Of a stretch of DNA of 64,000 nucleotides, positions 1,301-18,935 are shown piece after piece. A program made the position numbers and the translations under genes. Source of the DNA: Amycolatopsis sp. EV170708-02-1 (lineage in GTDB: Bacteria > Actinomycetota > Actinomycetes > Mycobacteriales > Pseudonocardiaceae); NCBI RefSeq assembly GCF_022479115.1, contig NZ_CP092497.1:372001-436000 (forward strand), in the 5' to 3' direction. How positions within the stretch are numbered: the first letter of the stretch is position 1; each line of letters begins with the position of its first letter. The notes under the pieces are model-generated. The model did no database searches and was not told the DNA's origin. It saw only the letters and a list, made by a program, of their open reading frames with translations.

Positions 1301-1336
1301 GTTGACCGGAAGCGCCGCGCGGCGAGAACAATCAAC
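1301..1336 (-). promoter_or_regulatory. Cluster-specific promoter/operator motif, copy 1
   Basis: TTGACCGGAA (1302-1311) and AGAACAATCAAC (1325-1336) are separated by 13 bases and lie 58 bases upstream of the carbamoyltransferase start. The same two blocks, 14 bases apart, occur at 17677-17712, 56 bases upstream of the other operon start. Read toward the genes, the site is GTTGATTGTTCT, a spacer, then TTCCGGTCAA, with GTTGA/TCAAC ends as an imperfect inverted repeat. It is either a shared activator site or an alternative promoter. The identity of the binder is inferred, not seen. Confidence 0.65.
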
Positions 1337-2789
1337 CTTCGGACGAGCCTCCCGGCAGGGTGCGCACGGCCTCGTGGCGCAGCGATTCGAACGCGTTCTT
1401 CCGCGCCCGGTGGCCCGCCATCGGGACGGCGGCGGCGAACGGTCCGGGCTCCCGCTGCCGTTCGGAGGCGAACGCGCTGACCAACCGGGAGACCGCGTAG
1501 CGGCCGGCGACGTTGGCGCGCTGGAGAAGTCCGGCGTCCACCACGGACTCGAGGAGTTCGTCGGCGGTCTCGATCATGATGCCCATCGCCGCGGCGACGC
1601 CGATCGACGTCGTCCAGCCCGCCCCGCTCTGCCCGAAGTGGTGGACGGCCTCCCGCTCGGTGGGCGAAAGGTGTTCGTACGCCGCGGTGAACCGGTCCCG
1701 CACGTTGACATCACCGACACAGAGGCTGTCCATGAGCCGTTCACGATCGGCGAGCTGGCCCGCCGTGTACGCGATCGCCCATTCCGGGCGGGCGGCGATC
1801 TTGCGGCCGACGATGTTGATCGCCAGCGGGAGATCCCCGCACAGTTCGGCGATCGTGTCGGTGGCGTCGTGCTCCGCCCGCACCCGGGCCGGTCCGGCGA
1901 TCCGGCCGATCAAGGCCATCGATTCCTTGCGGGAAAACGTATCCAGCTCGACACGGTTCGTGTCCTCCAGGCCGAGCAGCCGCGCGCGGCTGGTCACCAC
2001 GACCTGGCTGTGCGGGGCCTGACCCAGCAGCGGCCGCACCTGGCCCTCGTCGCTGACCCCGGCCAGGAGCACGAACAACTTGCGTTCCGCCAGCAGGGAT
2101 CGGTAGAGCCCGATCCGCTGCATCGGGTCGTCGGGCACGAGATGCGCCGGCACGCCGAGCGCGCGCAGGAATCCGCGCACGATCCCGTTGGCCGACCGGC
2201 CCCCGGTTCCGCTGCCGCCCAGATCGGCGTAGAGCTGCCCGTCCGGGAAGTCCGCCGCCACCTCTTCCGCCAGCCGCAAGGCGAAAGCCGTCTTCCCCAC
2301 CCCGATCGGGCCGCTGACGAGCAACGGCACCTTGACCGGGCCGCTCGACCCGATCATCTCCGCGGCGTCGGCGAGATCCCCTTCCCTGCCGACGAAAGTC
2401 CTCGATCCCATCGGCAGCTGGGCCGGACGGGCGAGGCGGATGACGCCGGATGCCAACGCGTGCACGCCATCCGGCGGTGCTTCGGCCGTCGGTGGCGCGG
2501 GCGCGCGTTCCTCGCCGCCACCCCCGGTCTGCCCGGCGACACTCCGCCAGCGCCGTTCCCACGCGGCGCGGTCCCCACCGCACGCGGAGACGAACGCCAG
2601 CGTCACGGCGAGCGTGGGCAGCCGGTGGCCGCTGGCCGCGCTGGACAGCACGGAAGGTGCGAACAGTGCCGTCCTGGCGAGCTCCCGGTAACTCGGGTTT
2701 CCCGCACGGTTCCTCAAAACGCGCAGATCGTGAGCGAATGCGGCGATCGGACCAGTGGAGCCGTCCAACGGTCGCTCGGGTCTGCCCAT
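1332..2789 (-). CDS. NB-ARC (AfsR-like STAND) transcriptional regulator
   Basis: A 485-residue protein. After an N-terminal segment of about 75 residues resembling the helix-turn-helix modules of actinomycete STAND regulators (LRNRAGNPSYRELARTALF), the NB-ARC domain begins near residue 120 with FVGRE and a Walker A GPIGVGKTAFA, followed by LFVLLAG (Walker B-like) and CGDLPLAINIVG (GxP motif). There is no long TPR tail, unlike the 763-residue relative at 56193. The ATG at 2789 was chosen over longer alternatives because GGGGAGGAG lies about 7 bases upstream. It sits between the carbamoyltransferase and the main operon, and a palindrome at 2920-2934 overlaps its likely -35. It is the obvious candidate for pathway-specific control; that role is inferred. 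Confidence 0.8.
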   Translation of the reverse strand: MGRPERPLDGSTGPIAAFAHDLRVLRNRAGNPSYRELARTALFAPSVLSSAASGHRLPTLAVTLAFVSACGGDRAAWERRWRSVAGQTGGGGEERAPAPPTAEAPPDGVHALASGVIRLARPAQLPMGSRTFVGREGDLADAAEMIGSSGPVKVPLLVSGPIGVGKTAFALRLAEEVAADFPDGQLYADLGGSGTGGRSANGIVRGFLRALGVPAHLVPDDPMQRIGLYRSLLAERKLFVLLAGVSDEGQVRPLLGQAPHSQVVVTSRARLLGLEDTNRVELDTFSRKESMALIGRIAGPARVRAEHDATDTIAELCGDLPLAINIVGRKIAARPEWAIAYTAGQLADRERLMDSLCVGDVNVRDRFTAAYEHLSPTEREAVHHFGQSGAGWTTSIGVAAAMGIMIETADELLESVVDAGLLQRANVAGRYAVSRLVSAFASERQREPGPFAAAVPMAGHRARKNAFESLRHEAVRTLPGGSSEG

Positions 2790-2919
2790 GCCATCTCCTC
2801 CCCTGGATGGGGTAACGCAATCGCACTGCGTGACCGTCATCCCTGCAGCCTTCCTGGCCACAACCCTAAAGGACCAATGAACCATGCAGCAGATACAAAT
2901 AGGTGACTCAATGTACAAA

Positions 2920-2934: not shown

Positions 2935-2976
2935 GCGGAAATTCACCCCCTTGGTGGCACCGGATAGGGTTCGCCC

Positions 2977-4003: not shown

Positions 4004-4330
4004 ACTACTCCTTTCGGAGTGCGCCGTTCAGCCCTCCCGATTGCCCTTTTCGGTCCCGTGAATTCCCTTTCGGGTGACCGAAAGGCCGGAAGGCGCAGGG
4101 TCGCCGACGAAGATGGCGGGTTCGCGTGATTGAACGGACGACACACGTGTCTGCAAGGACGACACGCGTGATCAGACGGACGACACACGCGAACTCCGTC
4201 CAGTCACGCGTGTCGTCCGTCTGATCACGCGTGTCGTCCGTCTGATCACGCGAGTTCCGGGGCCGAGCACGTGTGAAGGCCCCTTTCCTCGGCTGAGCCG
4301 AGGGAAGGGGGCCTTCACAGGCGAAAGGGG
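4004..4330. repeat. Intergenic gap with nested inverted repeats and a terminator-like hairpin
   Basis: No gene is seen. Positions about 4122-4256 consist of repeated units built on GACGACACGCGTGATCAGACG: the left arm (4157-4191) is nearly the reverse complement of 4205-4239, and further partial units flank both. A second hairpin at 4273-4318 has arms GTGAAGGCCCC and GGGGGCCTTCAC around an inner CTCGGCT/AGCCGAG stem. Both lie between convergent transcription units ending at 4003 and 4331. The same unit recurs at 33471-33622. Confidence 0.8.
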
Positions 4331-4660
4331 CTACTCCGCGACCTCTTCGATGGCCGAGGTGCCGCGAGAGCCGGGGTTCCCGTACCGCTCCCACACCTCG
4401 TTCAGGCGGATCCGCCCGTCCGGCAGGAACTCCGGGGTGTTCGTGCTGTGCCCCGCGATCACCTGCCCGCCGGCCAGGACCATCGTGTAGGCCATGTCGA
4501 TCGTCCCGTCCTCGCCGCACTTCCCGGTCAGCGAGCCGAGCCGCACCCCGCCGCCGCTCAGCTCGGCCCATACCAGGTCGTCCTTCTGCCGGTACAGGGT
4601 GACCGGCGCGTCCGGGTCGCTGCTGACCTTGCGGAACCGTTTCCCGTCGTAGTTGATCAT
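4331..4660 (-). CDS. Small uncharacterised protein, last gene of the biosynthetic operon
   Basis: A 109-residue protein with the start ATG at 4660 overlapping the stop of the glutamate-synthase-like gene (ATGA), so it is translationally coupled. It is predicted to be mostly beta strands (RFRKVSSDPDAPVTLYRQK, DLVWAELSGGGVRLGSLTGK, GTIDMAYTMVLAGGQVIAGHS) ending in an acidic tail. It resembles short proteins often labelled n-acetylglutamate synthase by homology transfer, but I see no acetyl-CoA motif and do not accept that function. Its place as the last coupled gene suggests an accessory role in the pathway. Confidence 0.65.
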   Translation of the reverse strand: MINYDGKRFRKVSSDPDAPVTLYRQKDDLVWAELSGGGVRLGSLTGKCGEDGTIDMAYTMVLAGGQVIAGHSTNTPEFLPDGRIRLNEVWERYGNPGSRGTSAIEEVAE

Positions 4661-5901
4661 CCGTCCTGCTCCGTCCGAGTCGGGAACCAAAGGTCGTCCG
4701 TGGTCAGATCCGCGAGGTCGTACTTCCCGAGCGCGCTGGCGAGCAGCCGCAGTTCGAGTTCGAGGCAGCGCACCAGCCGCACGAGCCCTTCGGTCGCGTC
4801 CTCGTCGACGGCGAGCAGCGCCGCCCGCCCGAGGCCGACCGCGGAAGCGCCCATCGCCAGGCACTTCAGCGCGCGGGCGCCTTCCCAGATCCGTCCCGAC
4901 ACCAGCAGCGACGCGTCGTGTTTGCCGACCCGGCGCAGGCATTCCACCAGCGGCAACCCCACCTGGTCGAGGAACACCGACGGCGCCCAGCCGGTGCCGC
5001 CCTCCGCGCCGTCCACGGTGACGGCGTCCGCTCCCGCCGCCCACGCGACCCGCGCCGCCTCGCCGACGTCGCGGCCCGGGTGCAGTTTCACCCAGGCACG
5101 CGCCCGCGGGTAGTTGTTGCGCATCAGGTGGATCTGCTGGCGCAGGATCTCCCCGGTGAACGTGCCCGGGCTGCTGGACCGCAGCACCATGGCCTGGTCC
5201 CTGCCGAAGGCTTCGTCCACTGTGTACTGTTCGGCGATCTCGCCGGCGGCCGTGCGCGAGAGCACGGTCATCCCGCCGAGCCCCGGCTTGGCACCCTGAC
5301 CGACCTTGAGCTCGAACGCCAGCCGCCCGGTCTCCAGCAGTTCCGTCGCGGACGGGTCGCTGTAGACGAGGTTCCACACCTCCGCGTCGGCGTCTTCGGT
5401 GCTCTGCTGGACGACGACACCGCCCAGCCCGTCCGGAACGGCGCCGGCGTACGCGCGGATCCGGCCGAGCAGACCGTCCTCGACGGTTTCGCCCATCCTG
5501 CCGTAGCCGTGCATGGGCACGACGTTCTCGCCGATCACCATCGGCATCCCGAGCCTGCCCGCCTGCTCGCTCGCGGCGATCCCGAGCCCGCTGCCCGCCA
5601 CCTGCGTGGAGCCGAACGCGCACAGGAACACCGGCGACGGCGCGGTGAACCCGCCGAGCACGGTCGACAGCCCGACGTCGCCGTACACCGGTTCGCGGGC
5701 GAGGTCGAACATCTTCTCCAGGCGCCGCGGGACGAACACCGGCGGCACGATCCGCGCGCGGTCGAGTTCGTCCGGCGGGGTGCCGGCGTCCGCGCCGAAC
5801 AGCGACCGGCCGTATCCCGCGACGTCGGGGAAGATCGCCGCGCTGCCTTCCCGTGCCCTGGCCCGGATCGCATCCTCCGGGAGCTGCCGCGCGGTGATCA
5901 C
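4657..5901 (-). CDS. Stand-alone FMN glutamate-synthase-domain protein
   Basis: A 414-residue protein matching the FMN-binding (beta/alpha)8 Glu_synthase domain of GltB. Hallmarks are KVGQGAKPGLGG in the middle, DGAEGGTGWAPS about 80 residues later, then LLVSGRIWEGARALKCLAMGA and VGLGRAALL for phosphate binding. The glutamine amidotransferase domain is absent, and I see no cysteine triad for the 3Fe-4S cluster of canonical GltB. Relatives of this kind occur as subunits of N-methylglutamate synthase. In this operon it may oxidise or reductively aminate an amino-acid intermediate. Its start overlaps the stop of the AsnRS-like gene by four bases, and its stop overlaps the next start. Confidence 0.8.
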   Translation of the reverse strand: MITARQLPEDAIRARAREGSAAIFPDVAGYGRSLFGADAGTPPDELDRARIVPPVFVPRRLEKMFDLAREPVYGDVGLSTVLGGFTAPSPVFLCAFGSTQVAGSGLGIAASEQAGRLGMPMVIGENVVPMHGYGRMGETVEDGLLGRIRAYAGAVPDGLGGVVVQQSTEDADAEVWNLVYSDPSATELLETGRLAFELKVGQGAKPGLGGMTVLSRTAAGEIAEQYTVDEAFGRDQAMVLRSSSPGTFTGEILRQQIHLMRNNYPRARAWVKLHPGRDVGEAARVAWAAGADAVTVDGAEGGTGWAPSVFLDQVGLPLVECLRRVGKHDASLLVSGRIWEGARALKCLAMGASAVGLGRAALLAVDEDATEGLVRLVRCLELELRLLASALGKYDLADLTTDDLWFPTRTEQDG

Positions 5902-6893
5902 GGCGTCGCGATCCCGGGCAGCTTCGGGTACGCGTTCGCCTGCCAGATCGCGTCGAGCCCGGCGATGTACCGCGTCACCCGCTCCAGCCCCATCCCGAAA
6001 CCGGCGCTCGGCGGCAGCCCCTCGCGCGCGAGGTCGAGGTACCAGGCGTACTTGGCCGGGTTCTCCCCCGTCTCCCGCATCCGCTCGATCAGCCGCCGGT
6101 ACTCGTGCGTGCGCTCACCACCACTGCAGAGCTCGCCGAACCCGTCGGAGGCGATGAGGTCGAAGTTCCGCAGCACCCCCGGTTCGGTGCTGGACTCGCC
6201 GTCGGTGAACCCGCGCGACCCCTTGGGGTAGTCGACGATGAAGAACGGCCGGTTCGTCTGCTCGGAGATGATCCGCTCGCCCTGCCAGTCGATCTCCGCG
6301 TCGGCGCTCTGCCCGTGCCGCAGCCCCTGCAGCCGCGACACCGCCTCGCGGTGCGTCATCCGTTCGAAGTCCTCTTCCAGCAGCGCCGTGAACGCCTCCT
6401 GATCCCGCCCCAGTGTGGCCAAGTCCACTTTGGACTCTCGAAGGGTGTGGGCGACCACGTGCCGCAGCAGTCCCTGCGCGATGTCGAGGACCTCCTCGCG
6501 GCTCGCACGGGCGACCTCGACGTCGATCTGGGTGAACTCGACCAGATGCCGTCCGGTGGTCGAGGTCTCCAGCGGCTCCAGCCGCACATTCGGGGCGACG
6601 TAGAAGATCTTGTCGAACGCGAGCAGCGACGCCTGCTTGTACAGGATGACGCTGGTCATCATCTTGTACTTGTGCCCGTAGTAGTCGACGTCGACCTGTT
6701 TGGCGCCACGGCATCCCGGGTCGGTGACCGGCCCGATCAGCGGCGGCTGCAGCTCGACGAACCCGTTCATGCCGAGGTACTCGCGGGTGCCGGCGGTGAT
6801 GCTGTTCTGGATGCGCAGGGCAGCCTGCGTCACCGGCGACGTCAGATGTTCGCGGGTGCCCGGCGGCAGCGCCGCCTCCGATGGTCCGGTCAT
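5898..6893 (-). CDS. AsnRS-like asparagine synthetase (class II aaRS core without anticodon domain)
   Basis: A 331-residue protein containing only the class II synthetase catalytic core of the AsnRS/AspRS group. It has a motif-2-like stretch (RHLVEFTQIDVEVA), a later FFIVDYPKGSRGF and motif 3 GFGMGLERVTRYIAG. The N-terminal OB-fold anticodon-binding domain of true AsnRS/AspRS is missing, as in the archaeal-type AsnA/AS-AR enzymes that make asparagine from aspartate and ammonia through an aspartyl-adenylate. Here it may amidate aspartate or the 3-methylaspartate made by the neighbouring glutamate mutase, or another amino acid. Substrate assignment is inference. It is coupled on both sides by four-base overlaps. 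Confidence 0.8.
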   Translation of the reverse strand: MTGPSEAALPPGTREHLTSPVTQAALRIQNSITAGTREYLGMNGFVELQPPLIGPVTDPGCRGAKQVDVDYYGHKYKMMTSVILYKQASLLAFDKIFYVAPNVRLEPLETSTTGRHLVEFTQIDVEVARASREEVLDIAQGLLRHVVAHTLRESKVDLATLGRDQEAFTALLEEDFERMTHREAVSRLQGLRHGQSADAEIDWQGERIISEQTNRPFFIVDYPKGSRGFTDGESSTEPGVLRNFDLIASDGFGELCSGGERTHEYRRLIERMRETGENPAKYAWYLDLAREGLPPSAGFGMGLERVTRYIAGLDAIWQANAYPKLPGIATP

Positions 6894-8200
6894 GTCCTAC
6901 TCCCCTGTGTCAGTCGGTTCACGGTCTCGATTCCCGGTAGCCCGTACTTCTCGTCGAACGACCGCTCGACGTACCGGAGCGCGTCCAGCAGGTCGTTCGA
7001 GGTCATCCGCCGGTCGCCGGGCAGGTCGACGAGGTCGCCCAGCGGCATCGCGCCGATCCGCTGCCACTCCAGGCGGCCGTCGCCGGCCAGCCGTCCGCGG
7101 GCGCGGCCGGCGTTGTCCGGATGCAGGCAGAACGGGACGTCCAACTGGCCGCGCGCGAACGCGGTGACCAGCGCCCTGCCGAGGTCGGCGTCGAGCGAGA
7201 GAACGTTGTCCACCAACGCCTTCGCCTGAGCGTGGATCCCGGTGTCGCCGAGCCTGCCGATCCGGGAGACGCCCCGGGCGGCCTCGGCGGCGTGCTCCAG
7301 CGCGGTCACGTTCTCCGCCACGGTCGGCAGCCGGTGCGCTTCGGCGGTGGTCTTGACGATCAGCCTGCTCGCCCCGGAGCGGGCGGCCAGCCGCGCGGAC
7401 TCGGCGATCAGCTCCAGCGCGCCGCCCGGTGTCCTCGGGTAGACGCCCATGTAGCCGTAGATCACCACGTGCGTCCGCGCGTGCGGCACGTATTCCCTGA
7501 TCAGCGCGTGCAGCGCGGCGACGGCCTCCTCGTCCTGCCCGGCGTGGGTCTGCTGCGCGTAGCTGAAGGACAAGCAGCGGATCCCGTGCCGCCAGAAGAA
7601 CATCCCCTCCAGCACGCTGAGCGCGACCAGCAGCGCGGGCGGGCACAGCTGGCCCATCATGCAGCCGCCGAACGTCTCCAGATGCGGCTCCAGCTCGGGA
7701 CCGCGGGCCTCGGCCAGCGTCTCGCAGGAGCGCCGCCAGTTGTCGACGGCCGCCGAAAGCGGCATCCGGCTGTACGGCAGGCAATACGACACCGGGCCGC
7801 CCTCGGTCGCGTGCAGCCCGAAGTCCAGCAGCGCCCGCACGATCCGGCGGGGATCCGCCGAACCGTGCCGCACCTGCACCGGGAAATCCCCGGTCAGCAC
7901 CCCGTCGAGCAACGCCGTCGTCGTCACGGGGTCGTGGTCGACGAGCGGATACCCGTTGAGGTCGGCGCGCGCCGCCAGCGCCGCGCGCGCCGCCTCGTGG
8001 TCGCCGACCCTGGTGTAGCTGTCGATCGTGATCGTGCCGACCGTCGCGGCCCGCGCCGACCGTGTCGCCAGCAGCCCCCTGGCCATCCGTCCCGGATCGG
8101 CGAACCCCATCCTGGGCTGGACGACCAGTTCCCCCTGCGCGTGGTGGCGTGCGACCACCTCGCCGAACGAAAGTCCCCGCGGCGGGGCGAGCACGTTCAT
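6890..8200 (-). CDS. Glutamate mutase large (epsilon) subunit-like protein
   Basis: A 436-residue protein of the coenzyme-B12-dependent glutamate mutase E family, which with the small subunit rearranges L-glutamate to 3-methylaspartate. Features are PRMGFADPGRMARGL near residue 30, GTITIDSYTRVGDHEAA near 60, GFPVQVRHGS-like substrate-barrel segments and SFSYAQQTHAGQDEEA near residue 230. It is somewhat shorter than the usual ~480 residues. The start at ATG 8200 overlaps the small-subunit stop by four bases. In actinomycetes this pair usually supplies 3-methylaspartate to a natural product, which fits its place here. Confidence 0.85.
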   Translation of the reverse strand: MNVLAPPRGLSFGEVVARHHAQGELVVQPRMGFADPGRMARGLLATRSARAATVGTITIDSYTRVGDHEAARAALAARADLNGYPLVDHDPVTTTALLDGVLTGDFPVQVRHGSADPRRIVRALLDFGLHATEGGPVSYCLPYSRMPLSAAVDNWRRSCETLAEARGPELEPHLETFGGCMMGQLCPPALLVALSVLEGMFFWRHGIRCLSFSYAQQTHAGQDEEAVAALHALIREYVPHARTHVVIYGYMGVYPRTPGGALELIAESARLAARSGASRLIVKTTAEAHRLPTVAENVTALEHAAEAARGVSRIGRLGDTGIHAQAKALVDNVLSLDADLGRALVTAFARGQLDVPFCLHPDNAGRARGRLAGDGRLEWQRIGAMPLGDLVDLPGDRRMTSNDLLDALRYVERSFDEKYGLPGIETVNRLTQGSRT

Positions 8201-8661
8201 CCCGCGCCCAGCGGGACACCGGGGGCGCGGACGGACAGCGTGCGAAGGAACGTGCGGAACGGGGTCAGCCCGGCGGAGTCCTCGAACACCGCGTCGAAGC
8301 CGGCCTCCAGCAGCCGGGCCGCGTTGCTGCCGCCCGTGACGTCGAGCTTCCCGCCGATGACGACCGGCGTGGTGACCAGCTCCGGCCGGGCGCGGAAGGC
8401 CTCCATCAGCCGGACGCCGTCCTGACGGCCGTGCCCGTTGAGGCTGCTGATCACCAGCAGATCCGGCCGCCGGGTGACGCATTCGCGCACGATGGTCGCG
8501 TCCGGGACGCAGGCGCCGAGGTTGGTGACCCGGCAGCCCAGTTCCTCCAGCAAGAGCTCCAGGTACACCAGGTTCCAGGTGTGCGCGTCGGACGAGAGTC
8601 CGGTGACGATCACGTCGAGGCCGGCGTCCGGGAGCGTGGGCTGGACGGCTTCGATGGTCAT
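8197..8661 (-). CDS. Glutamate mutase small (sigma) subunit-like, B12-binding
   Basis: A 154-residue Rossmann-type cobalamin-binding protein. The base-off/His-on motif is seen at residues 25-30 as DAHTWN: D25 and the cobalt-ligating H27 are kept, but the usual glycine of DxHxxG is N30. The downstream SSL (72-74) and GG (103-104) motifs are present (VISSLNGHG, VVIGGKL). ATG 8661 overlaps the preceding ATP-grasp stop. It pairs with the large subunit at 6890-8200. The N30 change may alter cofactor binding, but the rest of the domain looks intact. Confidence 0.85.
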   Translation of the reverse strand: MTIEAVQPTLPDAGLDVIVTGLSSDAHTWNLVYLELLLEELGCRVTNLGACVPDATIVRECVTRRPDLLVISSLNGHGRQDGVRLMEAFRARPELVTTPVVIGGKLDVTGGSNAARLLEAGFDAVFEDSAGLTPFRTFLRTLSVRAPGVPLGAG

Positions 8662-9938
8662 GGTGCGGCGTTCTCCCTCTCTCCTCGGTCCGGCCGCACG
8701 TCGATCTCGATCAGCGCGACCGCCTCTTCGGCCAGGCGCGACGCCTCCGCCGGGCTGTCCGCGGTCACCATCAGATCGCCGACGCGGTCCCACGAACTGC
8801 GCAGCCCGTCGAACCGGTCACCCGCCGAGACACTGACGTCGCACATGAACACGCCTTCGGCCTGCGACGCCTTCTCCACCCCGCGCACGTCCTCGATACG
8901 GCCGGGCTCGATCGACAGGAAGCGGACCGCGGCACCGCGTTCGGCCTTGCGCGGCAACACGTCCACGACCGGCTCGTCCTTCATCACCGAGAAGTAGGCG
9001 CGGTTCAGCTCCACCGGATAGGCGCGCTGGATCAGCTCGATGATGCCGTCGCCCGCGAACCGGCCGGCGCATTCGACCAGGTACGGCACGCCGTCCGAGA
9101 CGATCCACTCGCAGTGGACGATCCCGGTGCGGAACCCGGCCGCGTCGGTGAGCCGCCTCGTCTCCTCGGTCAGCGTCGCGGTCAGCTCGTCCGGGATGTC
9201 GGCGGGGACGATATGCGCGAGTTCGATCGGACGCGGCCCGGGGAACAGCCGTTTACCGGTGACGTTGGCGAACAGCGGCTCGCCGTCCCGCAGCAGCATC
9301 TCGACGCTGAACTCGTCGCCCTCGACGAAGCTTTCGGCGAGCATCTTCAGGTCCATCGCGCGGTCCGGGACGAAGATCCCCTCGTCCTGCACGACACAGT
9401 TCGTCCACGCCTGCTCGGCCTCGGCCGGGTCGGTGAGCACCTGCGTCCCCACCGAAGCCTGCCGGTTCGACGGCTTCAGCACGATCTTCCCCGGATGCCG
9501 CGCCATGAACTCCCGGACCTGCTCCGGGCTCTCGACGCGCGCCGACGCCGGGTTCGCGATCCCCGCCGCCCGGCTGACCAGGCGCAGCACCGCCTTGTCC
9601 CGCAGGATCTGCGCCGCGCCGAACCCCGCTCCCGGCAGGCCGTAGCGTTCCGCGAGCCGGGCCGCGAACGGCGTCGCGTACTCGGTCAGCGGGACGACGG
9701 CGGCCGGGTCGAGGTCGTGGTGGACGTGGTAGAACTCGTCCGCCTTGCCGGGCAGGTGGAACTCCCACTCGATGAGCTCGCGCACCAGCGCCGAACCGGC
9801 CACCGTCTTCCGTGCTTCGCGTTTGCGGACGACGTCGGGTTCTTCGACGAAGATGACCGAGCCGTCCGGCTGGAAGTCCTTGATGGACGAACCCAATGCC
9901 GCGGCCACGAACCCGACCAGCACCACCGGGCGTGTCAT
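8658..9938 (-). CDS. ATP-grasp carboxylate-amine ligase (second of two)
   Basis: A 426-residue protein with an ATP-grasp fold: an N-terminal Rossmann-like part (PVVLVGFVAAALGS), then KIVLKPSNRQASVG (ATP loop), FVEGDEFSVEMLL, and the metal-binding VPYLVECAGRFAGDGIIEL. Such stand-alone enzymes join an amino acid carboxylate, through an acyl phosphate, to an amine, usually another amino acid. The gene lies between the SBP-like protein and the glutamate mutase, coupled to both by ATGA overlaps. It is a candidate for the amide or hydrazide bond in the product. The actual substrates cannot be read from the sequence. Confidence 0.8.
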   Translation of the reverse strand: MTRPVVLVGFVAAALGSSIKDFQPDGSVIFVEEPDVVRKREARKTVAGSALVRELIEWEFHLPGKADEFYHVHHDLDPAAVVPLTEYATPFAARLAERYGLPGAGFGAAQILRDKAVLRLVSRAAGIANPASARVESPEQVREFMARHPGKIVLKPSNRQASVGTQVLTDPAEAEQAWTNCVVQDEGIFVPDRAMDLKMLAESFVEGDEFSVEMLLRDGEPLFANVTGKRLFPGPRPIELAHIVPADIPDELTATLTEETRRLTDAAGFRTGIVHCEWIVSDGVPYLVECAGRFAGDGIIELIQRAYPVELNRAYFSVMKDEPVVDVLPRKAERGAAVRFLSIEPGRIEDVRGVEKASQAEGVFMCDVSVSAGDRFDGLRSSWDRVGDLMVTADSPAEASRLAEEAVALIEIDVRPDRGERENAAP

Positions 9939-11686
9939 GACCCCTCCTCGACGTAGTACCAGTTCTCAGGGTTGATCAAGCCGTACGGGTTGATCGGCGA
10001 GAAGCCGCGCAGGTTCCCCGCGACCTCGAACAACCGCCGCGGGAACGTCGGCATGAAGATCACCGGTGCCTGCTCGGCGATGTACTCCTGGTACTCGTAG
10101 AGCGCTTCGAGCGAGTCGGTGGTGACCGTCTTCGCGATCAGCTCGTCCGCCTTGGCGTCGCGCCAGTTGCTGAAGTTGCAGGCGGCGCCGCTCTGGAAGA
10201 GGTTCTCCCCGGTCGGGTAGTTGTAGACCCAGCCGCCGCCCCAGCAGGACAGCTGCCACATCCGCTTCTCGCCCGGACCGTCCTCCGCCACCAGGACCGA
10301 ACCCATCACCTCTTCGAGGCGGATCTCGATCCCGGCCTTGGCCGCGTCGTCCCGGAACTGCGCCATGAGCCGCGCCAGCGACGGCCGCCCTTCCCAGTAA
10401 CGCAAGGAGAAGCTCAGTTCGGTGCCGGCGGGGATGCCTTCACCCGCTTCACCGGGGCCGGTTCCGGGCCGCACGCATACCGCGGGCGAGGTGGTGACGT
10501 CCCAGCCGTTGTCGGCGAGCAGCTGCCGCGCCTTCTCCAGGTCGAACGGCCAGAACCCGCCGCGCTCGGTGATCTTCGGCGAGACCAGGTCGCTCTTGGG
10601 CAGCACCGGGATCGACCCCGTCTGGCTCCAGCCGTAACCCTGGTAGACCTCGCGAGCCCCGTACTCCTGGTCGAAGCAGCTCTGGAGGGCCTGTCGGACG
10701 TACGGCTGCCGGATCATGTTCCCCGCGACGGTCGGGTTGCTGAAGTTGACCGCCATGAAGTTGATGTTGAACAGGATCTGCGGTTCCAGCTGGAAGCCGT
10801 CGCCCAGCGGGTTCGGACCGCCCTTCGTCGGGTCTCCGTCCGGCTGGACGCCCATCCCCGGTGGCAGGAAACCGACCTGGACGTCACCGGACTGCAACAG
10901 CTCGTACTGCTGCTCGTCCGACGTCGTCGAGACCTGGCGAAGCTCGTCGAGATGCGGCGGGTTGGGCCCGCTGTAGTGCTCGTTGGGGACGAAGGTGACG
11001 ACACCTTCCTCGGTGTAGCTCTTGAGCCGCCACGGCCCGTTCACGACACTCCACACCGGACTGTCGGCCCACCGTGTGCGGTGCGAGTTGTCCTCTTCGA
11101 CGACGTCGCCGTTTTCCGCCATCAAGAACTCGTAGACCGCTTCGGCCTGCTCGATGTCGTGCGTCGCGTCGGCCGGGCCGTCCGCGGTGCGGTCCCACGC
11201 CTTCGGCATCGGTGTGATCATGGTGAGCTGGTTCAGCAGCACCCAGTTCTTCGAATACGCCTTGTCGAAGGTGAAGCTCACCTTGTCATCGGCGACCTTT
11301 TCGAACGACACCAGGTTGTCCGGGAAGTAGCCCTCGGAGTACGCCCCGAATCTCGGCCCCTTCACCTTCAGCATGTTCATCCAGAAGATGACGTTGTCCG
11401 CGCAGAGCGTCTCGCCGTTGGACCATTTCCACGGTTTGATCCGGACCACGCAGGTGCGGCCGGTCTCGTCCCACACCGGCTCCTCGCCGACGCTGAGGTC
11501 CCAGTCGATCTCCGGCGCGCCGTCCCGGCCCAGCCAGTAGAGCGGCCGGTACATCAGCATCTGGAACTCGTAGAGGCTCCGCACGCCGAAGCGTTCGCCC
11601 GGGGTGAAGGGGAAGATCACCGCGGGCGGGAACCCGGGCAGGCAGGCCCAGGTGGCGACGCCACCCTTGATCGGCTTGTCCGTCAT
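9935..11686 (-). CDS. Family 5 (OppA-like) substrate-binding-fold protein lacking a signal peptide
   Basis: A 583-residue SBP_bac_5 protein. It contains PLYWLGRDGAPEIDWDLS, VRIKPWKWSNGETLCADNV (the family signature region), FDKAYSKNWVLLNQ and a C-terminal QEYIAEQAPVIFMPTF. It begins MTDKPIKGGVATWACLPG: no hydrophobic leader, no lipobox and no Tat motif, and it is translationally coupled to a cytosolic ligase. No permease or ATPase gene accompanies it. It is therefore probably cytosolic and may serve as an enzyme or carrier for pathway intermediates instead of an uptake receptor. Its start lies 31 bases after the MFS stop. Confidence 0.8.
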   Translation of the reverse strand: MTDKPIKGGVATWACLPGFPPAVIFPFTPGERFGVRSLYEFQMLMYRPLYWLGRDGAPEIDWDLSVGEEPVWDETGRTCVVRIKPWKWSNGETLCADNVIFWMNMLKVKGPRFGAYSEGYFPDNLVSFEKVADDKVSFTFDKAYSKNWVLLNQLTMITPMPKAWDRTADGPADATHDIEQAEAVYEFLMAENGDVVEEDNSHRTRWADSPVWSVVNGPWRLKSYTEEGVVTFVPNEHYSGPNPPHLDELRQVSTTSDEQQYELLQSGDVQVGFLPPGMGVQPDGDPTKGGPNPLGDGFQLEPQILFNINFMAVNFSNPTVAGNMIRQPYVRQALQSCFDQEYGAREVYQGYGWSQTGSIPVLPKSDLVSPKITERGGFWPFDLEKARQLLADNGWDVTTSPAVCVRPGTGPGEAGEGIPAGTELSFSLRYWEGRPSLARLMAQFRDDAAKAGIEIRLEEVMGSVLVAEDGPGEKRMWQLSCWGGGWVYNYPTGENLFQSGAACNFSNWRDAKADELIAKTVTTDSLEALYEYQEYIAEQAPVIFMPTFPRRLFEVAGNLRGFSPINPYGLINPENWYYVEEGS

Positions 11687-11717
11687 GACTTTCGCTTCCT
11701 CCGCATGTCGGCCGCGC

Positions 11718-12974
11718 TCAGGCGGCGGTCGCCTCGAGAACCTCGGCCGGCCGCTTCTCCTGCGCCGACAGCGGTTTCGCCAAGCTGAAGTAGGTACCGA
11801 TCACGATCGCGCCCTGCAGGATCGCCAAGCCCCAGAAGGCGTAGGGCACGGTGGTCGCGTCCGCCAGCGAGGACAACGCGACCGTCGCGCCGACGCCGAG
11901 CCCGAGACCGAGGGCCTGCGTGCCGCCGAAGATCCGGCCGACCCGCTCCTCCGGGCTGGCCCGCATCAGCAGCGTGCGGGCCGCGATCCGGCCCTGCGCG
12001 AAGCAGAACCCGGCGAACGGGATCGCCGCCATCAGCGCGATGTAGTGCAGCGGCTGGATCGCGAGGCAGATCAGATTGCCGAGCGTGCCGAACACGGCCA
12101 GATGGATCCCCTTGAACCGCTTGCTGACCTTGCCGTACGCCGCGGCGCCGACGATGAACCCGACCCCGGCCAGCGCGTCGACCACGCCGATCATCCACGC
12201 GCCCTGATTGAACGTCTGCAGGATCAGCGTCGTCAGGATGACGTTGGCGACCATCAGGCCGATGTTGCCGTTGGCGTACAACAGCGCGAGCCGCTTGATG
12301 GGCTGGCGCACGGGGGCTTCGACCGGCGCCGACGGGTCGGTGGCCGTGGTCTCCTCGATCACCGGGGCCTTGGCGGGTTTGCGGCCGATCGCGTAGACCA
12401 GCACGGCCGAGAGGACGAAGCTCAGCGAGTTGAACACGAACAACGGCGTGGCGCCGAACCAGATCACCAGGAAGCCGGCCAGCGAAGACGCCAGCAGCAT
12501 GCCGGCGTTGCTCGCCATCTCGAAATGCGAGTTGAACTTCCCGAGCCGCTCGTCGCGGATCCGTTCCTTGATGAGCCCGTTGCTCGCGGGCATGAACAAC
12601 GCCGCGGTGCAGGCGAGCATGAAGTTCGCTATGTAGGAACCGAGGTTCGCCGGGCCGCCGATCCACAGCCACACCGGCAGCGCGAACGCGGTCATCGCGC
12701 TCACGAGGTCCGCCGCCACGCACAGCATCCGGCGGTCGACCTTGTCGACCAGCTTGCCGAACAGGACCGCGAGCGCGACCTGCGGGATGGACACCGCGAT
12801 GAACAGCCAGCCGACCGCCAGGGTGGTCTGCTCGGCGTGGAAGACCAGGATCGCGGCGGCGGTGATCTGGAAGGCGTTGCCCGCGGTGGTGATGAATCCC
12901 GCCGGGACCAGCAGGCGTTCGGCGAGCCGGGAACTCCGGATCGCGTCGGTGGACAAGGTGCTGTCGAGTGACAT
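11718..12974 (-). CDS. MFS exporter of the biosynthetic operon
   Basis: A 418-residue major facilitator protein with about twelve hydrophobic segments in two halves, joined by a hydrophilic loop near residues 205-235 (KAPVIEETTATDPSAPVEAP). It has the MFS_3/enterobactin-exporter-like look, with FGKLVDKVDRRML between TM2 and TM3 (motif A) and RASPEERVGRIFGG in the second half. It is the only membrane transporter in the operon and the natural candidate for export of, and self-resistance to, the product. It starts 6 bases after the MetRS-like stop. Confidence 0.85.
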   Translation of the reverse strand: MSLDSTLSTDAIRSSRLAERLLVPAGFITTAGNAFQITAAAILVFHAEQTTLAVGWLFIAVSIPQVALAVLFGKLVDKVDRRMLCVAADLVSAMTAFALPVWLWIGGPANLGSYIANFMLACTAALFMPASNGLIKERIRDERLGKFNSHFEMASNAGMLLASSLAGFLVIWFGATPLFVFNSLSFVLSAVLVYAIGRKPAKAPVIEETTATDPSAPVEAPVRQPIKRLALLYANGNIGLMVANVILTTLILQTFNQGAWMIGVVDALAGVGFIVGAAAYGKVSKRFKGIHLAVFGTLGNLICLAIQPLHYIALMAAIPFAGFCFAQGRIAARTLLMRASPEERVGRIFGGTQALGLGLGVGATVALSSLADATTVPYAFWGLAILQGAIVIGTYFSLAKPLSAQEKRPAEVLEATAA

Positions 12975-12980
12975 GGTGGG

Positions 12981-14606
12981 TCAGACCTCGCTCGTCAGGG
13001 GGAATTCCAGTGAGGGCACAGGGAAGGCCGTGGTGTGCGTGACGTCGAACGCGGCCGGGGTGATCCGGAGGGCGAACCCGCCCGCCGCGGCGGCGCGTGC
13101 GGCGAGGTCGATCAGGATCGGCGAGGCACAGCCGATCAACGCCCGCAGTTCGAGGAAGAGGTCGCCGAGCCGCGCGCGGAGCATCTCCTGGTCGAGGTTG
13201 CCCTTCAGGGTGCGTTCCGTCGCCGCCCGCAGGCGTTCGACGTGCTGCACGATCAGATCGGCGGCCCGGCTCAGGCTGAAGTCCTCCAGCTCGTAGTTCA
13301 GGGCGAACCGGGACACCATCGCCGCGGCCCGCTCCGTGGCCTCGGTCGACACCGGGAGCGAGCCGTTCTCGCCGCCGACCTCGGCGGTGAGCTTGGCCAG
13401 TGTCTCGGCGAGCTCGTTCCACGGCGTGACGAGCCGCTCCCCCGCGACCTTCTCCAGCGCGGCGCGGGAGAAGTTGGTCCGCGCGAACTCGGGGGCGGTG
13501 AGGTTGAGGTGGAACCGCGCGATGTCGCGGGGCACCTCGGCCGCCAGCTCACGGGCCCAGACCACGTGGCCCTTGCTGGTGGAGAACTTCTCGTTCTCCA
13601 GTTCGTAGAACTCGTTGACCAGCAAGGTGTCCGGCAGGACGTAGCGGCCTTCGAGGGCCATCAGCTCCGCGACGTGGACGACGCCCCAGGTGAAGAGGGG
13701 GTCGAAACCCATGAACACCACGACCCGTGCGTCGTTCTCCGCGAGCCAGGCGTCGTCGTCGGCGGCTTTCGGCTTCCCGTTGCGCCGCAACGCGTACTCG
13801 GTGCAGTACATCGAGGCGGGCATCCCCTCGACCCACGCGTTGAGCCGTTGCCCCGGCGTCTGGAGGAACGGAGCCGGCAGCCCCCACTTCACCGGGTACG
13901 TGATCGCGAAGTCGGGCAACGGCCCGGCGAGCAGTTCCCGCATCAGCCCGAGCACGTGCGGCCGCCACGCCGGCCCGCGTTCTTCGTAGTAGGCCAGGAG
14001 CTGCTCGCGGTACTCCGAAACCGGGAAGACCATGATCTCGGTCTCCCGGTAGGTCACCTCGTCGGCCGGGTCGAGCACCGAGTACGGCTCGATGAGCGCG
14101 TCGAAGTCGATCGGATGCCCGCAGCCCTCGCAGAATCCGCCGCGGCTGTCGGCGAGGCAGGTCGGGCAGCCACCGCCGACGAAACCCTCGACCAGGAACT
14201 CGCCCTTGCACTCGTTGTAGGGCAGCCGCACCTTGCGCAGGCGCAGCTTTCCCTTGTCGTACAAGCGCTTCACGTAGTCGTAGACGAGCGCCTTGTAGCC
14301 GTCGTCGGTCGGCGAGAAGCCGTCGACCTCGACCCCCATCGCCTCGAACGTGCGCTGGATGTTCTCCGTCGACTGCTCCACCAGTTCGGGCGGCGTCAGC
14401 CCGACCCTGGCCGCGCTGGTGACGAGGTAGGTCTGGCTGTCGTCGGTGCAGGAGGCGAACACGGCCTCGCGGCCCGCCGCGCGCAGGTACCGGCGGTGCA
14501 CGTCGGCACCGAGGTACGGGCCCGCGATATGCCCGATGTGCAGATCCCCGTTGGACGTCGGCGGGCCGCCGATGATCACCACCGGTCGCTTGTCGGCCAT
14601 CCTCAT
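12981..14606 (-). CDS. MetRS-like amino-acid-activating domain of a hydrazine (N-N) synthetase
   Basis: A 541-residue class I methionyl-tRNA-synthetase homologue with HIGH at 23-26, a zinc knuckle C147/C150/C159/C162, WGLPAPF near 241 and KFSTSKG (KMSKS equivalent) at 340-346. In the s56-p1, triacsin and pyrazomycin/formycin pathways a cupin-MetRS fusion joins an N-hydroxylated lysine to a second amino acid to form an N-N bond. Here the cupin is the immediately upstream gene (ATGA overlap), followed upstream by the N-monooxygenase, so this looks like a split version of that enzyme. It presumably activates the partner amino acid as adenylate or ester. A housekeeping or resistance MetRS is less likely given this operon. 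Confidence 0.85.
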   Translation of the reverse strand: MRMADKRPVVIIGGPPTSNGDLHIGHIAGPYLGADVHRRYLRAAGREAVFASCTDDSQTYLVTSAARVGLTPPELVEQSTENIQRTFEAMGVEVDGFSPTDDGYKALVYDYVKRLYDKGKLRLRKVRLPYNECKGEFLVEGFVGGGCPTCLADSRGGFCEGCGHPIDFDALIEPYSVLDPADEVTYRETEIMVFPVSEYREQLLAYYEERGPAWRPHVLGLMRELLAGPLPDFAITYPVKWGLPAPFLQTPGQRLNAWVEGMPASMYCTEYALRRNGKPKAADDDAWLAENDARVVVFMGFDPLFTWGVVHVAELMALEGRYVLPDTLLVNEFYELENEKFSTSKGHVVWARELAAEVPRDIARFHLNLTAPEFARTNFSRAALEKVAGERLVTPWNELAETLAKLTAEVGGENGSLPVSTEATERAAAMVSRFALNYELEDFSLSRAADLIVQHVERLRAATERTLKGNLDQEMLRARLGDLFLELRALIGCASPILIDLAARAAAAGGFALRITPAAFDVTHTTAFPVPSLEFPLTSEV

Positions 14607-14968
14607 GCCTCCGCTTCATGGCGAGCGGCGAACTTCACCGTCATGTCGGAGTCCCACCAGATCGCGTACATCTCGAAGTCCTCGGCACCGTCGTTGAGGA
14701 TGCGGTGCTCGGTGCCGGGTTTGTGGAACTCGATGTCGCCGGGCCGGAACGCGCGGCGCTCTCCACCGGACTCGACGACCGCCTCGCCGCTGACGGCGAT
14801 GAAGATCTCGTACTCGTGGTGGGAATGCGCACCCGTCGCGCCGTGCGCGGGCACCGTGACCCACGCGCCTTCGAACGGCGCGTTCAGCGCCGCCCACGGC
14901 AGGAGCCGCTGGCCGTAGGCACCGTTCTCGAAGACCATCTTTTCCCGCTCGAGCGGCCGGATCTCCAT
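14603..14968 (-). CDS. Cupin subunit of the split hydrazine synthetase
   Basis: A 121-residue single-domain cupin. Motif 1 is seen as GAHSHHEYEIFIAVSG (H48, H50/H51, E54) and motif 2 as PGDIEFHKPGTEH (H82, H88), giving a normal His/Glu metal site. In fused hydrazine synthetases the cupin domain carries out the intramolecular rearrangement that makes the N-N bond after the MetRS domain forms the ester between N-hydroxy-lysine and the partner amino acid. Its stop overlaps the MetRS start (ATGA at 14603-14606), which favours equimolar translation. It lies 23 bases after the N-monooxygenase gene. Confidence 0.85.
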   Translation of the reverse strand: MEIRPLEREKMVFENGAYGQRLLPWAALNAPFEGAWVTVPAHGATGAHSHHEYEIFIAVSGEAVVESGGERRAFRPGDIEFHKPGTEHRILNDGAEDFEMYAIWWDSDMTVKFAARHEAEA

Positions 14969-14991
14969 GACTTTCTCTTCCTTCTCGTTGG

Positions 14992-16305
14992 TCAGCGGGT
15001 GGCGACGATGGGGGCGGTTTCCGAAGTCGGCTGCGGTGGCACCGAAGGGGTCTCGCCGCGGTGGGCGAGGATGTCCTGCAGGATGTCGTTGGCACGCGGG
15101 GCGAGGACGCTCAGCAGCGAGTCCGCGATCCCGTGCGTCGCCTCGTTGACGCCCTGGAGGTAGACGGCCGCGGTGGCGGGCTGCTCGATCTCCAGCCGGT
15201 AGTCGCGGGTCACCTTGATCTCCGACAGCCCGATCGACTTCGCGATCTCCTGGACCATTCTCGGCATCTCCGGGGAGAAACCGGTGCCGAGCAGCACGAG
15301 ATCGGTGCGCAGTTCCTGGACCTCGCCGGTGCGCCGATCCGTCAGTTCCAGCACGATCTCGTCGCCCTCGTCGCGGGCGTCGGTGATGTCGTTCATCGTG
15401 ATCATCGACAGCCGCGAACGGCCGGAGAGGCGGTCGAGGTAGATCGAGCGGTAGAGCGCGTCCATCGTGCCCGGGGCGAGCCCGGAGTAGTTCGTGTGGT
15501 GCATCTCCTTGAGCATCTGCTCGCGCGCTTCGGGCCGCGCTTCGAAGAACTTGTCCACATGGGACGGGAAGAACAGCTCGTTGTTGAACTTGCTGCTCTC
15601 GTAGTAGTTCAGGCCGATCGACCGCATCACCATGGTCGGCTTGCATTCGGGCAGGTCGTTCTGCACCGCGCTGAACAGTTCCGCCGCGCTCTGCCCGGCG
15701 CCGATCACCGCGACGCGGTACGGGAGATCCTTGCGCAGCTTGGCGATCCTCGGCAGGTACTGCGTGCTGTGGATGACGCGGTCCTGGTTCACCGTGCGGA
15801 GCCGGTCCGGGATCCGCGCGTCGCGGCCCGCGCCGACGACCAGGTACCGGCTGCGGATGGTCTCGCCGTCGGCGACGTGGGTGTCCCAGCCGGTGAGCGT
15901 GCCGTCCGTCCACACGGGAGTGATTTCGAGGCATTCGCGGCCGCGCTGCAGGTCCACCAGCGACAGCGAGTCGGCCGTCCACTTGAGATAGTCGGCGAGC
16001 TCCACCCGGTACGGGACGAAGCTGCCCATGTTCACGAACTCGTTGAGCCGGTTCGTGGCGTGCAGGTAGTTGAGGAACGAGAAGCGGCTGCGCGGGTTGC
16101 GCAGGGTCACCAGGTCCTTGAGGAACGAGACCTGCGAGAGGGCCTCGGGCAGGAGCATCCCCCGCTGCCAGGAGACCTCTTCGTCGCGTTCGAGCAGGAC
16201 CGATTCGCGGGCCAGGCCGGGCGCGAGCTCTTCCAGCGCCACGGCCAGTGCCAGGTTCGACGGTCCTGCTCCGACTGCGAGCAGCTCGACATCACGGTTC
16301 GCCAT
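14992..16305 (-). CDS. Lysine/ornithine-type N-hydroxylating monooxygenase
   Basis: A 437-residue flavoprotein of the siderophore N-monooxygenase family (IucD/SidA/PvdA type), which hydroxylates the side-chain amine of lysine or ornithine using FAD, NADPH and O2. The FAD motif is AVGAGPSNLALA (about residues 10-21), the NADPH motif VIGAGQSAAELF lies mid-protein, and LLGTGFSPEMP sits near the C-terminus. The ATG at 16305 has GGAG 7 bases upstream, and a longer reading frame upstream is not coding. With the cupin and MetRS genes downstream, the likely role is supplying N6-hydroxylysine (or N5-hydroxyornithine) for N-N bond formation, not a siderophore: no NRPS or NIS synthetase is present. Confidence 0.9.
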   Translation of the reverse strand: MANRDVELLAVGAGPSNLALAVALEELAPGLARESVLLERDEEVSWQRGMLLPEALSQVSFLKDLVTLRNPRSRFSFLNYLHATNRLNEFVNMGSFVPYRVELADYLKWTADSLSLVDLQRGRECLEITPVWTDGTLTGWDTHVADGETIRSRYLVVGAGRDARIPDRLRTVNQDRVIHSTQYLPRIAKLRKDLPYRVAVIGAGQSAAELFSAVQNDLPECKPTMVMRSIGLNYYESSKFNNELFFPSHVDKFFEARPEAREQMLKEMHHTNYSGLAPGTMDALYRSIYLDRLSGRSRLSMITMNDITDARDEGDEIVLELTDRRTGEVQELRTDLVLLGTGFSPEMPRMVQEIAKSIGLSEIKVTRDYRLEIEQPATAAVYLQGVNEATHGIADSLLSVLAPRANDILQDILAHRGETPSVPPQPTSETAPIVATR

Positions 16306-16364
16306 TTGTTCGCTCCGCCATCTTTGTGAGTGCTGGGAAGGTGTTCTGTGGTACCGGTGCGCGG

Positions 16365-17621
16365 TCAGCCACCGGCGGCCACCGAGGGCAGCAGGGGGTG
16401 CGCGGTCAGCCGGACCTGGGCCATGGCCTTGTCCAGCACCGCTTCGCAGTCGTCGGGGTCGGCGCCCGCGCAGATCACGTACGCGTGGCGCGAAATGAAC
16501 TCGGCAGGCGGCAGCCGCAGACGCGAACCCGGCTCGACGAGCCGGTCCGCCGCGAGGATTCCATTGTTCCGCAAGGAATCCGGCACGGACACGGACTCGA
16601 CGACGCAGTCCTGTCTCGGGTAGCCGAACCGGACGCCGACCCACCGGGGCTCCGCCTCGTGCGGGATGTGGGGACGCATGCCGAGCGCGACGTCGACCGC
16701 GGCCGCGCCGGGGTCGATCCCGGTCGCGAACTTGGCGAGCAACGGGATCAGGTCGCCGCCGAGCCTGCCATTGATTTCCACGATCACCGGCCCCCGCTCG
16801 GTGAGCTTGAGCTCGGTGTGGGTGATGCCGTACCGGAAGTCGATCGCGCCGTGCGCACGGGCCAGTGTCGAGCGCAGGGCCGGGTCGGCGAGCAGTTCGT
16901 CCGCGGAACTGACCAGGTGGCCGAGCTCCTCGAAGTACGGATGCATGCCGACCGTTTTGCGGGCGACGAACATCGGCGTGTACTCACCGTCGACGACGGC
17001 GCCGTCCACACTGATCTCCGGGCCGCTCAGGTACTCCTCGACCAGCGCCCCGCCCTTGTAGGCGGGAGAGCCGTTGAAGCTGGCGTCCTCCGCGGTCCGG
17101 AACGCCTTCCGCACCGCCTCGGCGTCTTCCGCGAGGCTGACGCCGATGCTGGCCCCGCCGCCGCGCGGTTTGACGACGACCGGATACCCGATCCGCTCCG
17201 CCACGCGGACCGCCTGCTCGTCGTCGTGCACGAACCCGAAATCGGGCTGCGCGACGCCGGCCGCCGTGAGCGTCCGGCGGCTGAACCATTTGTCACGGCA
17301 GCCTTCGATCGCGGAGACCCCGGCGCCCGGCACGCCGAGTTCGTCCGCGACGTGCGCCGCCGCCACGATCAGCGCCTCGTCCCAGCACACCACGCCGAGC
17401 ACCGGCGTGGTGGCGTGGAGCGCTCGGGCCGCGGCCAGCACGGCGTCCTGGTCCTGCGTGTCCAGCACGGTCGCGCCGGTGATGTAGCGCTCCTGCCAGG
17501 TCGGTTCGGTCCCGTTGAACAACCACAAGGGATGCCGGTGCCCGGCCGACGCCAACAGGTACTCCCGGTACGGCCGCATCCCGCAGCCGATCACCAGGAC
17601 AACACCCTCCGCTGAGCTCAT
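16365..17621 (-). CDS. ATP-grasp ligase, first gene of the biosynthetic operon
   Basis: A 418-residue ATP-grasp enzyme of the carboxylate-amine ligase type. An N-terminal Rossmann segment (VVLVIGCGMRPYREYLL) is followed by YPVVVKPRGGGASIGV (ATP-binding loop), ALVEEYLSGPEISVDG and the Mg-binding VIVEINGRLGGDLIPLL. ATG 17621 follows GGGGAGAGGG. It shares fold but little obvious sequence with the other ligase at 8658-9938, so two successive amide bonds are possible. The shared motif at 17677-17712 lies 56 bases upstream, making this the promoter-proximal gene. Substrates are unknown. Confidence 0.8.
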   Translation of the reverse strand: MSSAEGVVLVIGCGMRPYREYLLASAGHRHPLWLFNGTEPTWQERYITGATVLDTQDQDAVLAAARALHATTPVLGVVCWDEALIVAAAHVADELGVPGAGVSAIEGCRDKWFSRRTLTAAGVAQPDFGFVHDDEQAVRVAERIGYPVVVKPRGGGASIGVSLAEDAEAVRKAFRTAEDASFNGSPAYKGGALVEEYLSGPEISVDGAVVDGEYTPMFVARKTVGMHPYFEELGHLVSSADELLADPALRSTLARAHGAIDFRYGITHTELKLTERGPVIVEINGRLGGDLIPLLAKFATGIDPGAAAVDVALGMRPHIPHEAEPRWVGVRFGYPRQDCVVESVSVPDSLRNNGILAADRLVEPGSRLRLPPAEFISRHAYVICAGADPDDCEAVLDKAMAQVRLTAHPLLPSVAAGG

Positions 17622-17676
17622 TCCCTCTCCCCACCAGCCCGTCACTTCGTCGCGGGCTACTACATCCCGGGGCGGG

Positions 17677-17712
17677 TTGACCGGAACCCTTGATTCGGGA
17701 AGAACAATCAAC
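17677..17712 (-). promoter_or_regulatory. Cluster-specific promoter/operator motif, copy 2
   Basis: TTGACCGGAA (17677-17686), a 14-base spacer, then AGAACAATCAAC (17701-17712). It is almost the same distance from the start codon (56 bases) as copy 1 (58 bases). The spacer sequences are unrelated, so the conserved blocks are unlikely to be leftover duplication. A divergent gene starts at 17769, so the site could also influence that gene. Confidence 0.65.
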
Positions 17713-17768
17713 GAGATGCGTGGTGCCGAGACGGATGCCATGAGGAATGCGACCGGCAGGAGGCCGTG

Positions 17769-18320: not shown

Positions 18321-18368
18321 GCCGAGTGCACCCGATGCCATATCGGGCGCACTCGACTCGCCGGGGAG

Positions 18369-18776: not shown

Positions 18777-18935
18777 TGGAACGCTCCTTCTGTTCGGGTC
18801 ACGAGCATCCTGGCAGACACCCCCTGCCGCGACAACGGACGGACTACGGCCGGGTGAATCCTTCGCGCAACGAAAATTCAACCCCGTTCGCCGAATACGT
18901 GAGCGATTTCCCGAGCGCCGCTTTAATGTCGGCAC

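Follow-up and report, generated by a model that had tools for sequence, protein, structure and literature searches.

A predicted hydrazine-forming operon with a 3-methylaspartate/asparagine cassette and ATP-grasp ligases in Amycolatopsis

What would an operon make in which the enzymes that join two nitrogens stand together with ATP-grasp ligases and a glutamate mutase, and does the mutase product become half of the hydrazine? The question is raised by positions 4331-17621 of a 64,000-nucleotide stretch (the window, G000:C1:372001-436000) of the one-contig, 9.66 Mb genome of Amycolatopsis sp. EV170708-02-1, where twelve tightly packed genes lie on the minus strand. From gene families and context, we consider it likely that these genes make up most of an approximately 18-gene cluster directing the synthesis of a hydrazine peptide that contains 3-methylasparagine and is assembled by ATP-grasp ligases, independently of non-ribosomal peptide synthetases (NRPS). 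The nitrogen-joining enzyme pair is known; its combination with a 3-methylaspartate/3-methylasparagine (3-methyl-Asp/Asn) cassette and ATP-grasp assembly appears undescribed.

At the level of the hydrazine core, the trio of N-hydroxylase, cupin and methionyl-tRNA synthetase (MetRS)-like protein is supported as being of hydrazine-synthetase type. An earlier note on this DNA had proposed as much, and the cupin ligand spacing, the MetRS motifs and the adjacent N-hydroxylase all bear it out. The N-hydroxylase gene (PF13434) lies directly upstream of the cupin gene. In the cupin, H48, H50, E54 and H88 are spaced as in PyrN, where H50, H52, E56 and H90 are the metal residues and the Glu is indispensable (PMC8664883; here, as for the other papers given by PMC number, excerpts of the text are cited). 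This metal pattern was found in 60/60 extracted cupins, a set that contains duplicates of the same genes. Solved relatives of the cupin are 4rd7 and, weakly (E 6.5e-10), 5uqp, which is RHS1, a stand-alone N-N-forming cupin of Rhodococcus (PMC8664883).

The MetRS-like protein retains the HIGH and KFSTSK motifs and has 26.9% identity, in the best segment, to the housekeeping MetRS of the same genome. The earlier note had set a MetRS tree as a test beforehand: there, the protein joins paralogues from other hydrazine clusters, apart from housekeeping MetRS. The identity and the tree placement together rule out a housekeeping copy. The separate cupin and MetRS genes, put forward earlier as a novelty, are not new, because stand-alone pairs have been in the literature since 2010 (PMC2922099), and their characterisation, the Rhodococcus pair included, followed in 2021 (PMC8664883). 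The two genes are indeed separate in the window, but their described ATGA overlap depends on the chosen start: GTGA stands there in most of 14 relatives, with an in-frame ATG close behind.

The operon is kept as a unit. Matches to its MetRS (E 1e-60 or better) occur in 36/80 genomes of the genus, own genome included, and in 15/80 the match is at least 92% identical; in the 14 other genomes of this last set, all twelve genes are collinear and on the same strand (14/14). Outside the genus, the genes recur in Kibdelosporangium (12/12), Actinokineospora (12/12) and Dactylosporangium (11/12). The dN/dS values of 0.05-0.26, obtained for each of the twelve genes in three comparisons, indicate that they are under purifying selection.

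The earlier note had given the range 4331-17621; the run itself stood, but the cluster is larger and continues past the left edge of the window. Leftward on the same strand (window 1-1244 and G000:C1:365800-372000) lie genes for a carbamoyltransferase, a DAO-type oxidase, a third ATP-grasp protein, DDAH, a CPA2 transporter and a clavaminate-synthase-like (2-oxoglutarate) oxygenase. ATP-grasp_4 and LAL_C2 domains are present in three proteins, the two operon ligases and the one left of the window. Within the window itself no DAO-type oxidase was found, and a cluster without a hydrazine-cleaving oxidase was considered; this was wrong, as the DAO gene lies just outside. DAO-family oxidases also stand beside or near the MetRS gene in other cassette-bearing relatives (the second group described below) and in several other related clusters. 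In Kibdelosporangium, Dactylosporangium and Actinokineospora (3/3), the DAO, third ATP-grasp, DDAH and oxygenase genes map to coordinates no more than about 8 kb from the operon, in varying order. Single stop codons were reported inside some of these matches; after realignment, the stop in the Dactylosporangium DAO match is two residues from the alignment end, and two other reported stops fall outside the aligned part. DAO-type enzymes such as Spb39 and Apy10 cleave such hydrazines on either side, which is the logic of the s56-p1 and actinopyridazinone pathways (PMC11705231); thus, the product may carry either a hydrazino acid or hydrazino-lysine.

To survey the mutase genes, genome contigs were scanned with an alignment of the asparagine synthetase A (AsnA)-type enzyme, and the best 80 of 236 relatives were taken. 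The two mutase subunits (MutS and MutE), the AsnA-type enzyme and the flavin mononucleotide (FMN) protein are all present in 77/80 loci and collinear in 73; of the loci without the full cassette (L065, L089 and L091), the last two are on contigs of about 4 kb. A hydrazine-type MetRS gene lies inside the stretch at 14/80 loci. At six further loci (five Kribbella-like and one metagenome-assembled genome, MAG), a MetRS match of the same genome lies just beyond the stretch, on a contig confirmed by its length as the same for 3/6. These 20 loci form our hydrazine-bearing set, and the remaining 60 are counted as without. By motif scan, an NRPS adenylation domain accompanies the cassette at 41/60 loci counted without hydrazine genes vs. 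1/20 counted with them; Pfam verified NRPS domains in all three proteins submitted. The adenylation codes beside the cassette were not readable by motif for Asp vs. Asn, and presence alone was counted.

Since many loci are counted without hydrazine genes and cassette-free hydrazine loci exist within the genus, the cassette is, on this distribution, a separable building-block supply. Its mutase function is credible from the residues kept: MutE R30, R64, R111, E133, Y139, Y143, K283 and E287 are invariant in 79/79 rows aligned to clostridial GlmE –residue numbers and catalytic roles as we take them to be in that enzyme– and the MutS D-x-H is invariant in 66/66 rows. By analogy, the cassette most likely supplies 3-methyl-Asp/Asn, because it resembles the streptolydigin genes for 3-methylaspartate (slgE1-slgE2-slgE3, SlgE3 being a glutamate synthase) plus the AsnRS-like SlgZ (PMC5357945), the nearest case described so far.

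In two groups of genomes, the cassette and the hydrazine trio occur together in a cluster: the window's own, and a second one of Kribbella, Kibdelosporangium, Actinocrispum and two MAGs. Does the cassette product, then, enter the hydrazine? The earlier note suggested glutamate, 3-methylaspartate or an amide of the latter as the amino acid loaded by the MetRS-like protein, which would make the mutase product half of the hydrazine. We do not favor this and judge it unlikely, as the cassette is separable and the pocket letters are shared with Deinococcus and Pantoea. Pocket positions were taken from an alignment of solved MetRS chains, and are compared as letters; 3h97 we take to be an E. coli MetRS variant, and the choice of pocket-lining residues is likewise our assumption. 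The window's pocket stretch, LNAWVEGMPASMYC, recurs unchanged in a Deinococcus cluster and with one letter changed in Pantoea and in Hamadaea, and the cassette is in none of the stretches read of these three hydrazine clusters. The pocket letters of the second cassette-bearing group, LNAWLELIPAGMYT and variants, are different, and elsewhere the cassette often stands beside NRPS genes. Because the pocket letters are largely shared with cassette-free clusters, unlike those of the second cassette-bearing group, the MetRS substrate would differ from the cassette product, and the hydrazine partner is probably another amino acid than that of the cassette.

Some observations do speak for the mutase product as the partner. 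Besides the shared clusters in two genome groups, at MetRS position 306, in the third pocket stretch, the window's four-genus clade has T, V or I vs. F in Deinococcus, Pantoea, Hamadaea and the loci L021, L022 and L142, and P303 is restricted to Amycolatopsis and one Kibdelosporangium. Hamadaea, with a pocket close to the window's, does have the cassette, on a different contig of the draft assembly (L059), and the AsnA there is the nearest neighbor of the window's clade. Moreover, for PyrN and for the enzymes of Rhodococcus, glutamate is a known partner amino acid (PMC8664883). The Deinococcus ficus (L143) and Pantoea ananatis (L144) clusters are plasmid-borne and contain N-hydroxylase, cupin, MetRS, FAD oxidoreductase, ATP-grasp and binding-protein genes. 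In the second group, the clusters at L151 and at L149 with L062 apparently have two N-hydroxylase genes.

An improbable alternative is that the AsnA-type enzyme, instead of amidating, is a hydrazine or hydrazide ligase, by which the side-chain carboxylate of (3-methyl)aspartate would be bonded to a hydrazine nitrogen. The AsnA-type gene, nearly always with the mutase, is found at 60/80 loci without a hydrazine MetRS in or just beyond the stretch, so ammonia would be the simpler nucleophile. We also counted against it that the hydrazine transferase Afn14 is AsnB-like, the other family. Its precedent is Afn14 itself, an asparagine-synthase-like enzyme that works in this way in albofungin (PMC11705231).

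Still less probable, in our view, are two unrelated neighboring pathways, a hydrazine cluster and an independent 3-methyl-Asn supply. The gene sets are separable: among more distant MetRS places in the genus, of which 29 were listed and 14 taken as 19.9-kb stretches, the cassette is absent from 14/14. However, in all 14 close relatives it lies inside the gene run, with the second ATP-grasp gene upstream and the small protein gene downstream, and the association was found again in the second group. One Amycolatopsis genome (G020) has both this cluster and a cassette-free hydrazine cluster (L023, L035). Finally, an inactive relic in this strain, to which the broken carbamoyltransferase frame could point, is hardly credible given twelve open operon genes under purifying selection and a carbamoyltransferase that looks dispensable, because it was not found (E 1e-60) in 2/3 other operon-bearing genera.

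Several points weigh against our preferred reading of an ATP-grasp-assembled hydrazine peptide with 3-methylasparagine. The best solved matches of the N-hydroxylase are L-ornithine 5-monooxygenase (3s5w) and MbtG (9nns), the best being an ornithine enzyme. MutS has N at the G position of the clostridial GlmS motif, presumably D-x-H-x-x-G. The FMN protein (414 aa) is the FMN part only, with one invariant Cys in 80 rows and no Fe-S Cys cluster; thus, it is not a complete glutamate synthase, and the streptolydigin parallel is, judged by these residues, imperfect. Repeated independent recruitment of the cassette was considered and dropped: two groups appear in both trees, yet a single clade survives approximately unbiased (AU) tests (p 0.50 and 0.36), and the association with hydrazine genes may be one old joining. 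In this strain, a single base in a G run near window 1050 disrupts the reading frame of the carbamoyltransferase. The frame is open over 522 aa in 5/5 genus relatives compared, and at E 1e-60 the gene was found in 1/3 other genera with the operon.

For the peptide that we prefer, the pathway can be proposed from families and context throughout. The flavin enzyme would give N6-hydroxy-lysine (ornithine being possible), and the MetRS-like protein would adenylate a second amino acid and esterify it onto the hydroxylamine, with no tRNA; the zinc cupin would then convert the ester to a hydrazine by rearrangement. The DAO-type oxidase would cut a single C-N bond, after which either an alpha-hydrazino acid or hydrazino-lysine would remain. 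In parallel, the B12-dependent glutamate mutase would form 3-methylaspartate, amidated by the AsnA-type enzyme to 3-methylasparagine. Up to three ATP-grasp ligases would couple these, perhaps plus a third, DDAH-derived residue; the peptide would be decorated by the 2-oxoglutarate oxygenase and, in some genera, by the carbamoyltransferase, and exported by the MFS and CPA2 proteins. The NRPS-free assembly that the earlier note had suggested fits the L-amino-acid-ligase-type ATP-grasps, together with no adenylation domain found by motif scan in the window.

Two proteins missing from the earlier gene list, which otherwise held, are the OppA-like (9935-11686) and avidin-like (4331-4660) ones. Both are present in most cassette-bearing clusters. 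The OppA-like protein has no evident signal peptide in the loci compared (N-terminus judged by eye, 13 loci), and both are apparently cytosolic. A tentative and rather doubtful idea is a soluble assembly line, in which the two would hold reactive hydrazino and peptide intermediates or a toxic product between the ATP-grasps, replacing carrier-protein tethering.

Table 1. Features of the predicted cluster, in window positions unless a genome coordinate is given; family matches are from Pfam and NCBIfam
Feature	Position	Strand	Evidence
ATP-grasp ligase 1 (L-amino-acid-ligase type)	16365..17621	-	PF13535 64 bits, LAL_C2 34.7 bits; kept in 14/14 genus relatives
Flavin N-hydroxylase, lysine/ornithine N-monooxygenase family; Lys the presumed substrate	14992..16305	-	PF13434 285 bits
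Stand-alone zinc-type cupin, H48-x-H50-x3-E54-x33-H88	14603..14968	-	Cupin_2
MetRS-like putative amino-acid-activating protein	12981..14606 (alternative start 14600)	-	PF09334 218 bits; HIGH, KFSTS present
MFS exporter	11718..12974	-	PF07690 94 bits
SBP_bac_5 (OppA-like) protein, no evident signal peptide	9935..11686	-	PF00496 132 bits
ATP-grasp ligase 2 (L-amino-acid-ligase type)	8658..9938	-	PF13535, LAL_C2 80 bits
MutS, glutamate mutase sigma-like B12-binding subunit (cassette gene 1)	8197..8661	-	PF02310 46 bits
MutE, glutamate mutase epsilon subunit (cassette gene 2)	6890..8200	-	PF06368 266 bits
Asparagine synthetase A-type (AsnRS-like) enzyme (cassette gene 3)	5898..6893	-	NCBIfam NF005052 425.8 bits, cut-off 368
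Stand-alone glutamate-synthase FMN-type protein (cassette gene 4)	4657..5901	-	PF01645 81 bits, PF01070 47 bits
Predicted avidin-like beta-barrel protein, 109 aa	4331..4660	-	
HTH/NB-ARC-type regulator, candidate pathway regulator	1332..2918	-	Pfam; 63-69% relatives beside cassette-free hydrazine clusters L029, L031-L034
Carbamoyltransferase, 5' part, gene leaves window	1..1244	-	Frame broken near 1050
DAO-type oxidase	G000:C1:370461-371585, 0.4 kb left of window	-	PF01266 81 bits
DDAH	Left of window	-	NCBIfam 448 bits, cut-off 300

The genes named in the earlier note were confirmed in position and family by an open reading frame check, Pfam and NCBIfam, which placed 11/12 operon genes in named families; 4331-4660 had no Pfam match. 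In window 1-20000, no cobalamin or T-box riboswitch was found, the sole hits being two miRNA-family matches far below gathering scores, and a promoter and terminator scan did no better than shuffles. Just downstream of the operon are two short arrays of 21-bp repeats (4136-4252), and at 2977-3669 there is a gene for a 230-aa protein without Pfam match, with 51% relatives near the hydrazine clusters L142 and L152.

Compared with known cupin/MetRS synthetases (Spb40, Tri28, PyrN, and Rhodococcus RHS1 with its MetRS), the likeness is in the N-hydroxylase, the zinc-cupin ligands and a MetRS with intact adenylation motifs (PMC8664883, PMC11705231); the two-gene form is known, whereas the Amycolatopsis surroundings differ. 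Clusters of the s56-p1, triacsin and azaserine type share the N-hydroxylase, hydrazine synthetase and DAO-type oxidase, the latter assigned here at family level and outside the window. For glycine as the partner amino acid in the s56-p1 type of pathway, the comparison covered the MetRS pocket letters. In contrast to these clusters, neither the window nor the leftward 19.9-kb stretch L156 gave an NRPS adenylation domain in the motif scan, and Amycolatopsis adds the 3-methyl-Asp/Asn cassette, three ATP-grasp genes, DDAH and two ligand-binding-fold proteins. The streptolydigin genes serve a PKS-NRPS (polyketide synthase-NRPS) tetramic acid. They were matched by description, not sequence, and share the mutase pair, the AsnRS-like protein and the glutamate-synthase-type protein (PMC5357945), but the Amycolatopsis FMN protein is without Fe-S cysteines and the cassette lies inside a hydrazine/ATP-grasp operon. 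In the MtRS-cupin-lysine monooxygenase neighborhoods predicted in 2010, the trio stands with ATP-grasps, dimethylargininase, binding proteins and transporters (PMC2922099); hydrazine chemistry was then not yet known, and the term glutamate mutase is absent from the main text of that paper. Literature searches of open-licence PMC papers (MIBiG not included) found no paper with this gene set, in line with the earlier note, which knew of no such pathway.

Amycolatopsis is a genus with vancomycin producers. If our reading is right, this genus and at least three others would hold a still unexplored family of natural products with N-N bonds that joins enzymatic hydrazine formation, 3-methylasparagine and ATP-grasp peptide assembly, and the gene set gives testable isotope-label predictions. 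The cassette, in turn, would be a building-block supply common to NRPS and NRPS-free systems.

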